A stretch of 64,000 nucleotides of DNA. Source: an uncultured Muribaculaceae bacterium (GTDB lineage: Bacteria > Bacteroidota > Bacteroidia > Bacteroidales > Muribaculaceae). Made by a program: the position numbers and the translations under genes. Within the stretch, counting starts at the first letter, position 1; every line of letters begins with the position of its first letter. The stretch is from NCBI GenBank assembly GCA_934675575.1, contig CAKUQQ010000008.1, positions 87,093 to 151,092 of the forward strand. The letters run 5' to 3'. Shown here in pieces: positions 54,756 to 56,781 of the stretch. The notes below the pieces were generated by a model that was not told the origin of the DNA, searched no databases, and was given only the letters and a program-made list of their open reading frames with translations.

Positions 54756-54803
54756 TTAACGATAGCGGAGCAACCCAGCATAGGGTTGCTCCGCTATCGT
54801 TAA
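54756..54803. terminator. 21-bp perfect inverted repeat between convergent genes
   Basis: Two 21-bp arms (54756-54776 and 54783-54803; TTAACGATAGCGG... outward) match exactly around the 6-nt loop AGCATA. It lies between gtrA and the CCA-enzyme fusion gene, so a two-way terminator is likely although no T-run longer than three follows. Confidence 0.7.
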
Positions 54804-54813
54804 TAAATGCTGT

Positions 54814-56781
54814 TTAATCTTTATGGGGCTCTTGTTTCAGCTCGCTTTGTGATGCAAGAGTGGCTTTTTCGAGTGCAAGAAGCTGTTTTTTGATCTTAAT
54901 GCCTCCGCCAAATCCGCCCAAACTGCCGTCGGCGTTAATCACGCGGTGACACGGAATGACGATGCACACCTGGTTGGCATTGTTGGCCATGCCCACGGCT
55001 CTGAAAGCCTGCGGACTGCCGGCGAGCTCGGCTTCGCGCTTGTAGGAAATGGTGGTGCCGTAGGGAATGGTGCGCAGAGCTTGCCATGTCTTTTTCTGAA
55101 AGTCGGTTCCAACGATAACTATTGGCAAGGAGAAGTGGATTAGTTTGCCAGCGAAATAGTCGTGCAGCTGAGCTGCGCAATGGTCAAGCAGAGGACAGGG
55201 GGCGGTGGAAGGTGTGAGCTGCAGTTTCTTGGCCAGCTTGTTAATCTTGTCGCTATCAAAACCAAACTCCACCATGGCTATGCCCGATGGTGCGGCGGCA
55301 AGTCCGAGAGTGCCTATAGGTGACTCGATTGACGTGTAGCACAGCAGGCCATCGTAGGTGGGAGCGAAGCCACACTCACGAGCTGTGGCAAGCATAAATG
55401 TGTAGGCTTGCTCATAGGTGTTGGTGATTTTGCCGTCGAGAATGGCATCTTTGATGGCGTCTTTAATTTTACCCACGGCAGCCGACGGTGGCAGATTGAA
55501 GGTCTTCATGATTTCGAGACCGTCGATTGGCGGCTGGAAGTTGCGGATTTTGTCTTTTTCTTCAATAGCCACCAGTTTCTGCTTCACAAGCTCAAAATTG
55601 TCGTGGAAGCGTTTCACCTTTTCCTGATTTTTTGATGTGATGTCGGCGTTGCAAAGGGTCATTAGGTCGTCGATGTCGTCGCCGGCGTCGAAAAGCAGCC
55701 TTCTCACGGCAGAGTCGGTGACCACGTCCTCCACAAGGGCTATGGGGCGCATGTGCAGCCCCACGAGCTTCTTGACATATTTCATGTGCTCGTTGAGTGG
55801 CAGACGCATCTTGGTGAAGATGCGCGGCACCATTTTCTCGCCTATGAAATTGTGGTTGTGAAAGGTCCAGCCTGCGGCATTGTCCCATTTCTTCGTGGCA
55901 GGCTTGCCTATGTCGTGAAATATGGCAGCCCAGCGCAGCCACACGTTGTCGCTTTTGAGAGCCACGGAGTCGAGCACCTGCATGGTGTGCTTGAAGTTGT
56001 CTTTGTGGCCGCGGCCGTTCACCACATCAATGCCCGACAACGCATCAAGCTCCGGGAAAATAATAGGCAGCAAGCCGCACTCCTTGAGCAGGAAGAAACC
56101 TATGGACGGCTGCTTGGACTTGACAATCTTCATCAACTCATCGGCTATGCGCTCTTTGGTGATGATTTTTATGCGGTTGCAGTTGCGTTTTATGGCCGCA
56201 AGCGTGTCGGGGTAAATCTTGAAATTGAGTTGTGTGGCAAAGCGCACTGCGCGCATCATGCGTAGAGGGTCGTCACTGAAAGTGACATCGGGGTCGAGAG
56301 GTGTGCGGATTATTTTGGCCTGCAGGTCGCCGATGCCGTTGAAAGGGTCGAGAAGTGTGCCAAAACTGCTTGCGTTGACCGATATTGCCATGGCGTTGAT
56401 GGTGAAATCACGCCTTTTTTGGTCGTCGTCGAGAGTTCCGTTCTCCACCACTGGATTTCGGCTGTCTTTGCTGTAAGATTCTTTGCGTGCGCCCACAAAC
56501 TCCAGTTCCATTCCGCGAGTTTTTACTTGTGCTGTGCCATAGGTCTTAAACACGGCGAGAGTTGACTTTTTGTTTCCAATTTTGGCTGCTACGGCCTTGG
56601 CCACGTCAATGCCGCTGCCTATGGTCACGAAGTCGAGGTCGTTGGAGTGGCGACCGAGCAGCTTGTCGCGCACGAAGCCCCCCACAACGTAAGTGTCCTG
56701 ACCCAGAGTGTCGGCCACATCGCCAACCAAATGGAATATTGGGTTGGCAATATATTGTTTGGTGTTGATATTCGCTGTCAT
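54814..56781 (-). CDS. Fusion of CCA-adding tRNA nucleotidyltransferase (HD type) with O6-alkylguanine-DNA methyltransferase
   Basis: 655 residues in one uninterrupted frame. Residues 1 to ~475 are a class II CCA-adding enzyme/poly(A) polymerase-like protein: nucleotide-binding GGFVRDKLL (34-42), catalytic DLD (48-50), RRDFTINAMA (~123-132), DPLRMMRAVRFA and an HD phosphohydrolase domain with FHDIGKP (His289, Asp290). From ~485 a complete MGMT/Ogt domain follows: YTSIESPIGTLGLA (small fold), FQKKTWQALRTIPYGTTISY, RAVGMANNANQVCIVIPCHRVI with the alkyl-acceptor Cys611, and GSLGGFGGGIKIK. CCA enzymes of related bacteria normally stop near 475; adding a DNA repair domain is unusual. Both parts keep their active residues. 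Confidence 0.92.
   Translation of the reverse strand: MTANINTKQYIANPIFHLVGDVADTLGQDTYVVGGFVRDKLLGRHSNDLDFVTIGSGIDVAKAVAAKIGNKKSTLAVFKTYGTAQVKTRGMELEFVGARKESYSKDSRNPVVENGTLDDDQKRRDFTINAMAISVNASSFGTLLDPFNGIGDLQAKIIRTPLDPDVTFSDDPLRMMRAVRFATQLNFKIYPDTLAAIKRNCNRIKIITKERIADELMKIVKSKQPSIGFFLLKECGLLPIIFPELDALSGIDVVNGRGHKDNFKHTMQVLDSVALKSDNVWLRWAAIFHDIGKPATKKWDNAAGWTFHNHNFIGEKMVPRIFTKMRLPLNEHMKYVKKLVGLHMRPIALVEDVVTDSAVRRLLFDAGDDIDDLMTLCNADITSKNQEKVKRFHDNFELVKQKLVAIEEKDKIRNFQPPIDGLEIMKTFNLPPSAAVGKIKDAIKDAILDGKITNTYEQAYTFMLATARECGFAPTYDGLLCYTSIESPIGTLGLAAAPSGIAMVEFGFDSDKINKLAKKLQLTPSTAPCPLLDHCAAQLHDYFAGKLIHFSLPIVIVGTDFQKKTWQALRTIPYGTTISYKREAELAGSPQAFRAVGMANNANQVCIVIPCHRVINADGSLGGFGGGIKIKKQLLALEKATLASQSELKQEPHKD

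Follow-up and report, generated by a model that had tools for sequence, protein, structure and literature searches.

A tRNA nucleotidyltransferase fused to an O6-alkylguanine-DNA alkyltransferase in a subclade of Muribaculaceae

Results

One reading frame carries two complete enzymes

The window analysed here, a stretch of 64,000 nucleotides from an uncultured Muribaculaceae bacterium, contains on its minus strand (54814-56781) an open reading frame that starts with ATG, encodes 655 amino acids and has no internal stop. It joins a complete class II, HD-type CCA tRNA nucleotidyltransferase (approximately residues 10-472) to a complete O6-alkylguanine-DNA alkyltransferase (MGMT; approximately residues 480-640). 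A reading of the DNA sequence alone had suggested just such a continuous fusion, with both halves complete and neither stop nor frameshift between them, and domain searches bear this out. Five Pfam domains, all on the minus strand, score above their gathering cut-offs: the PolyA_pol head, which is the nucleotidyltransferase catalytic domain (residues 30-159, 56305-56694; PF01743, 95.9 bits), the PolyA_pol_RNAbd neck (residues 186-247, 56041-56226; PF12627, 70.2 bits), the HD domain with His289-Asp290 (residues 263-348, 55738-55995; PF01966, 35.3 bits), the N-terminal ribonuclease-like domain of MGMT, Methyltransf_1N (residues 481-554, 55120-55341; PF02870, 37.8 bits), and the DNA-binding/catalytic domain, DNA_binding_1 (residues 560-639, 54865-55104; PF01035, 109.8 bits). 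PolyA_pol, HD and DNA_binding_1 are the domains that the sequence-only reading had proposed to look for. The acceptor cysteine it had picked out in a PCHRV motif is Cys611 (54949-54951, minus strand), and the lengths it had quoted as usual for the separate enzymes, ~475 and ~160 residues, fit the two halves. A further match, to tRNA_NucTran2_2, is weak and below cut-off (18.1 < 27), and no Pfam match up to E 1 was found for an endonuclease V domain, an AraC HTH or an Ada metal-binding domain.

Family-level models agree with this assignment in part. The alkyltransferase half passes TIGR00589 (106 bits against a cut-off of 46.4). The best CCA equivalog, TIGR02692, is matched at 354.8, below its cut-off of 438.8; as three unfused Bacteroidales CCA enzymes likewise miss that cut-off (340.7, 336.9 and 374.0), the miss reflects the range of the model rather than the fusion. 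The cut-off of NCBIfam pcnB is not reached either (120.8 < 305.65 bits, partial match). In a sequence search of solved structures the first half finds nucleotidyltransferases, deposited as poly A polymerase or CCA-adding enzyme, and the second half methylated-DNA--protein-cysteine methyltransferases. Just 3' of the fused gene, between convergent genes, lies a terminator-like stem-loop of 20 bp (54757-54802, minus strand), called from a consensus match only; it has the longest stem among the predicted sites of this kind, of which there are six where shuffles give 2.7 on average.

An AlphaFold2 model built from 48 aligned fused proteins has a mean pLDDT of 86.4 and a pTM of 0.62, a moderate value that leaves the relative placing of the two halves uncertain. 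In the model, helix 456-469 of the CCA enzyme runs almost straight into MGMT strand 479-487, so that the predicted linker is close to zero, and block means of pLDDT are 92-93 over residues 461-490, which span the join. Together with the alignment, this places the junction at residues 470-480 (55342-55374, minus strand), where the last helix of the CCA enzyme gives way to the first strand of MGMT. Among the best 50 of 84 Foldseek matches with E up to 0.001, the CCA half of the model finds tRNA nucleotidyltransferases (best 3wfr, E 1.5e-18; the Thermotoga maritima CCA enzyme 5hc9, 5.8e-17), and the MGMT half finds Mycobacterium tuberculosis Ogt (4wxc, TMt 0.83) and the C-terminal part of Escherichia coli Ada (1sfe, TMt 0.82).

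The fusion is a trait of a Muribaculaceae subclade

Both sets of Pfam domains are present in all of the best 120 of 8000 scored homologues, at lengths of 638-698 aa. We then searched 101 genomes of the genus of G001, the Muribaculaceae MAG (locus L001) that is the nearest fused genome, with the window protein and counted the outcome classes by hand. An intact fusion, with a single match running through the end of MGMT, is present in 77 of these 101 genomes; in five more (G021, G034, G038, G043, G089) a contig end or frame break interrupts the fusion; and 11 carry a complete CCA enzyme alone, ending near residue 475. The remainder comprise one gene cut by a contig end (G099), one genome with only a distant paralogue (G073) and six without a match, where it should be borne in mind that the genomes are mostly drafts, so that absence from any one of them is weak evidence. 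In each of the 77 intact cases the open frame that holds the PF01035 match is 639 aa or longer, and stops flagged in some fused rows were for this reason called as overrun beyond the gene end. In G089, a frame break near residues 353-365 splits the CCA part of the fused gene (L169:2922-4815), which may be real decay or an assembly error.

Sampling more widely, we find 74 full fusions among the 150 rows listed from a family sample of 397 genomes, eight of them in genomes beyond the genus set. The survey of Bacteroidales that had been proposed from the sequence thus shows the fusion recurring in a Muribaculaceae subclade but not across the order: in a sample of 295 genomes, G001 is the only fused genome among the best-scoring 150 rows, one row per genome. 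Across 80 loci from Bacteroidota, an MGMT match lies inside the stretch at one only, L001. The fusion is genuine and clade-wide. That an assembly or sequencing error joined two genes, a concern raised with the original observation, is ruled out by the 120 listed homologues with both domain sets and by the 77 separate genomes that carry the fusion in a single frame; we put its probability at practically nil.

Catalytic residues are conserved in both halves

To describe conservation we used 159 fused proteins, made up of 39 loci (including the window) and 120 database proteins, and scored residues whose functional importance we take largely from what is known of the two families. The MGMT partner residues Tyr, Arg finger and Asn, which we take to correspond to human Y114, R128 and N137, are present in the fused protein, as are His and Glu. 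The latter two are named as H146 and E172 in PMC10779285. In the MGMT half, Cys611, His612, Asn603, Tyr580, Glu638 and Pro610 are invariant (159/159) and Arg594 is present in 158/159; in the CCA half, R38, D39, D50, R123, R124, D125, E210, R211 and the HD pair H289-D290 are all invariant (159/159). By its residues and domains, the MGMT half resembles an ordinary Ogt.

Purifying selection acts on both halves, with the MGMT half evolving faster. Across 741 pairs from the 39 fused loci, median identity is 52% for the MGMT half versus 78% for the CCA half, and among the 79 of 741 pairs that pass a divergence filter median dN/dS is 0.23 versus 0.14, with MGMT values above 0.5 in nine of the 79.

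Each enzyme is mostly the only copy found

PF01035 is matched in 90 of the 101 genus genomes. In all 82 with an intact or broken fusion there is exactly one match, the fused gene, whereas among the 11 unfused genomes eight have a separate MGMT and three have none that we could find. Seven of the eight fused family genomes beyond the genus show the fused match alone, and the eighth (G133) has an additional match, in a short frame, so that the fused domain is the sole PF01035 match in 89 of 90 fused genomes overall. Of 13 genomes in another unfused set, 11 encode MGMT separately, at a different site. Single absences count for little in drafts, but the single-copy pattern as a whole is strong.

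A comparable picture holds for the other half. PF01743 has one match only, the fused head, in all 20 genomes tested out of the 90 fused ones. Five fused genomes out of the 82 in the genus (G019, G031, G043, G063, G094), all outside those 20, have an additional nucleotidyltransferase with 35-37% identity to the query. Taken over the whole genus set, a nucleotidyltransferase of 33-37% identity in a frame of 472-492 aa occurs in six of 101 genomes (the same five and G073), accompanying the fused gene in five of the six; it may be a paralogue or a contamination of draft genomes. The single tRNA gene of the window, a tRNA-Thr, does not encode CCA, nor do the genes of three distinct tRNAs from other Bacteroidota loci, so that for these tRNAs CCA must be added enzymatically. 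Judged by sequence, the fused head is the best candidate for this task.

A probable history of fusion and loss

In a quick tree of the CCA enzyme (71 rows), fused and unfused proteins are interleaved within a clade (support 89) of 56 rows, 41 of them fused and 15 unfused, which entails six changes between the fused and unfused states, at least three of them forced. For a more careful tree we removed seven long-branch unfused rows, leaving 64 of the 71. Here, an AU test rejects monophyly of the 33 fused rows of the window's group (group A) apart from nested unfused rows (p 0.0065), a question that we settled on with the quick tree already in view.

For the MGMT domain, a quick tree of 115 rows (58 fused) was later pruned to 78, leaving out L159, L111 (fused), L210, L205, L182, P0127, P0122 and P0123, thinning group A to 20 of its 50 rows and keeping all eight rows of a second fused group, group B. 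P0122 and P0123 resemble cut fused genes, and L111 had been oddly placed beside L159 in the quick tree, with weak support (58). In the pruned tree group A forms one clade (100/92) and lies within a mostly unnamed database pool, while group B (99/96) stands apart and adjoins standalone Bacteroidales proteins with weak support (76/91). The tree is biased, since the pool was picked for closeness to the window domain. Moreover, although it separates A from B, an AU test does not reject holding the two together (p 0.376), so that the two groups may stem from one fusion event or from two independent ones. Searching for long proteins with a group-B MGMT end, we find that the best 120 of 411 matches consist of 112 CCA-MGMT fusions and eight others; the 112 are 99 of 107 newly listed proteins (97 with a full CCA part) and 13 already among the homologues, and the eight have partners such as AraC/Ada or CYTH. 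Among long MGMT proteins with other partners, P0347 carries a CYTH domain (PF01928) and P0346 carries PF04304.

Given that the 20 sampled group-A MGMT domains form one clade and that the CCA tree rejects a single fused clade, the simplest reading for group A is a single fusion followed by at least two losses. Could the separate MGMTs of unfused relatives have been derived from the fused gene by fission? This is not supported. In five unfused members of the genus (L155, L156, L157, L158, L160) the standalone MGMT groups with Bacteroidales standalones, outside A, and, being of another lineage, is a retained or regained gene rather than a fission product; the other three unfused genus MGMTs are absent from the careful tree (L159 was dropped, G056 and G058 were left out). 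Inspecting by eye, in three frames, ~700 bases 3' of the unfused CCA genes at seven loci, we saw no MGMT remnant. We also considered whether MGMT might be started separately from an internal ATG at M463, which is invariant in the 48 aligned fused proteins. This turned out to be uninformative, as unfused tails that reach this position also have Met there.

As for the source of the MGMT domain, the few named standalone relatives among the best 120 of 6816 come from Paenibacillus, Treponema, Listeria and Clostridia, which might be taken as a hint of foreign origin.

Discussion

What does the fused protein do? We consider it probable that it is a bifunctional housekeeping protein that stems from an ancient gene fusion within one subclade of Muribaculaceae, repeatedly lost since. 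Its N-terminal ~472 residues would be the cell's main, and usually only, class II nucleotidyltransferase, adding or repairing the 3'-CCA of tRNAs, and its C-terminal ~160 residues would be the usual, mostly only, O6-alkylguanine-DNA alkyltransferase, a one-shot enzyme on which the alkyl group ends up at Cys611. The arrangement would go back to one event, or a few, within Muribaculaceae in which an MGMT gene was attached at the 3' end of cca; it would replace a separate MGMT gene and would have been lost again in several lineages. A likely benefit is a steady supply of MGMT from an essential gene, and no obligatory coupling between the halves need be supposed. One chain carrying two enzymes is the most economical mechanism and, among the options put forward in the sequence-only reading, that two repair jobs are simply kept together fits best. 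Against this account stand the weaker conservation of the MGMT half, with its nine pairs of dN/dS above 0.5, the missed TIGR02692 cut-off and the second nucleotidyltransferase in five of 82 genomes.

A narrower form of the same account, whose probability overlaps with that of the broader one, holds that a rearrangement accident has been kept by drift and inheritance, with the halves independent and perhaps even cut apart. We give this close to an even chance. Separate MGMTs in eight of 11 unfused genus members, the five placed in the tree belonging to another lineage, are consistent with it, as is the fact that CCA enzymes elsewhere carry other partners (an HAD phosphatase in two genomes, HD/HD_assoc_2 in one). 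However, across most of a species-rich clade the fused gene persists and is the sole MGMT found, which speaks against this narrower account. At the other extreme, alkylation of Cys611 might destabilise or inhibit the whole chain, so that heavy damage slows tRNA maturation and translation in the manner of a suicide-type sensor. The near-absent linker and confidently modelled junction would suit such coupling, as would retention of the fusion in 82 of 101 genus genomes (five of these broken) and the solitary PF01743 match in 20 of 20 genomes, on account of which loss of the CCA enzyme would bite. According to the review PMC10779285, alkylation makes AGT less stable and perturbs the contacts of its N-terminal with its C-terminal domain, the melting temperature of the Sulfolobus solfataricus protein being 20-35 degrees lower once alkylated. 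Yet the 11 genus genomes with an intact CCA enzyme and no MGMT half imply that coupling is not essential, the AU rejection of a single fused clade in group A fits losses of the MGMT half, that half is the less conserved of the two, and a pTM of only 0.62 leaves domain orientation unsure in the model. We regard coupling of this kind as very unlikely. A translation brake, whereby, MGMT being a suicide enzyme that alkylation destabilises, each repair event or saturation of Cys611 would alter the stability or activity of the CCA enzyme and alkylation damage would be read out directly as slower tRNA maturation, likewise strikes us as very unlikely; an influence of the halves on each other is possible but unsupported.

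The joining to a tRNA-binding enzyme also invites the idea that the MGMT half acts on alkylated guanine in RNA, with the CCA enzyme steering it to tRNA. Nothing beyond that physical joining speaks for this idea, and the literature consulted, PMC4437013 included, yielded no test of it. The catalytic residues and fold of the MGMT half look ordinary, and, since 89 of 90 fused genomes have no other PF01035 match, this half presumably serves DNA. Action on RNA is in our judgement highly unlikely. A further point against the bifunctional account is that the fused state itself is dispensable: an unfused CCA enzyme is what 11 of the 101 genus genomes carry, and in three of these no MGMT was found.

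Each half has close counterparts among known proteins. With bacterial class II HD CCA enzymes of the TIGR02692-like type, the ordinary Bacteroidales enzyme, the N-terminal half shares head, neck, HD domain, motifs and length, and it is 73-77% identical to the 11 unfused genus enzymes and 54-69% identical to those in the listed order rows; ordinary CCA enzymes, however, end near residue 475, whereas the window protein continues for ~180 residues with the MGMT domains. With Ogt/MGMT the second half shares both domains, the PCHRV cysteine, the partner residues and the fold matches to 4wxc and 1sfe, but ordinary members are short (mostly 150-190 aa among the listed relatives) and here the MGMT lies C-terminal to a tRNA enzyme.

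MGMT domains are also known from other longer proteins. The review PMC10779285 names three such fusions, AGT-EndoV, ATL-EndoV and AGT-2. AGTendoV of Ferroplasma acidarmanus and ATL-EndoV likewise join an alkyltransferase to a nucleic-acid enzyme, but there the partner is an endonuclease in DNA repair and, according to the review, only the C-terminal AGT part is used, whereas the window protein has an RNA nucleotidyltransferase as partner and retains the N-terminal MGMT domain; in Caenorhabditis elegans AGT-2, the MGMT catalytic part sits in a larger eukaryotic protein with a histone-like partner. The word tRNA is absent from the main text of that review. Ada, an AraC regulator joined to MGMT, and proteins of the Ada-AlkA type (P0340, P0344) also carry MGMT inside a longer chain, but the window protein has neither AraC HTH nor Ada metal-binding domain. 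As to whether the fusion has been described before, within the open-access literature searched no paper was found on a fusion of a CCA enzyme with an alkylguanine or methylguanine enzyme or on a Muribaculaceae tRNA nucleotidyltransferase. The CCA-MGMT architecture, composed of two known families, is apparently undescribed.

CCA enzymes with other additions turned up alongside. Two unfused Muribaculaceae enzymes (L152:2280-4319 and L153:766-2805, in G139 and G158) carry an N-terminal HAD phosphatase in a 680-aa frame (HAD_2, 76.4 and 80.9 bits), which, going by the domain matches, is a putative second kind of CCA fusion in this family. In G430, a Bacteroidales CCA enzyme (L211:63-2723) occupies a frame of 887 aa in which another HD stretch and HD_assoc_2 follow; this may represent a third fusion, or else a stop has been missed. 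The unfused enzymes at L141:3035-5203 (G018) and L212:1721-3631 (G634) have N-terminal extensions of ~240 and ~150 residues that are without a Pfam match and possibly reflect only the choice of start site.

Product names among the 120 listed homologues ('methylated-DNA--...' in three, 'poly(A) polymerase' in one) track one half only, so that surveys relying on them may miss either the CCA enzyme or MGMT in this clade. More generally, two universal activities reside on one chain in a species-rich gut clade, each of them mostly the sole copy found, and the fusion is a naturally occurring case in which to ask whether an essential partner can be affected by a suicide repair enzyme.
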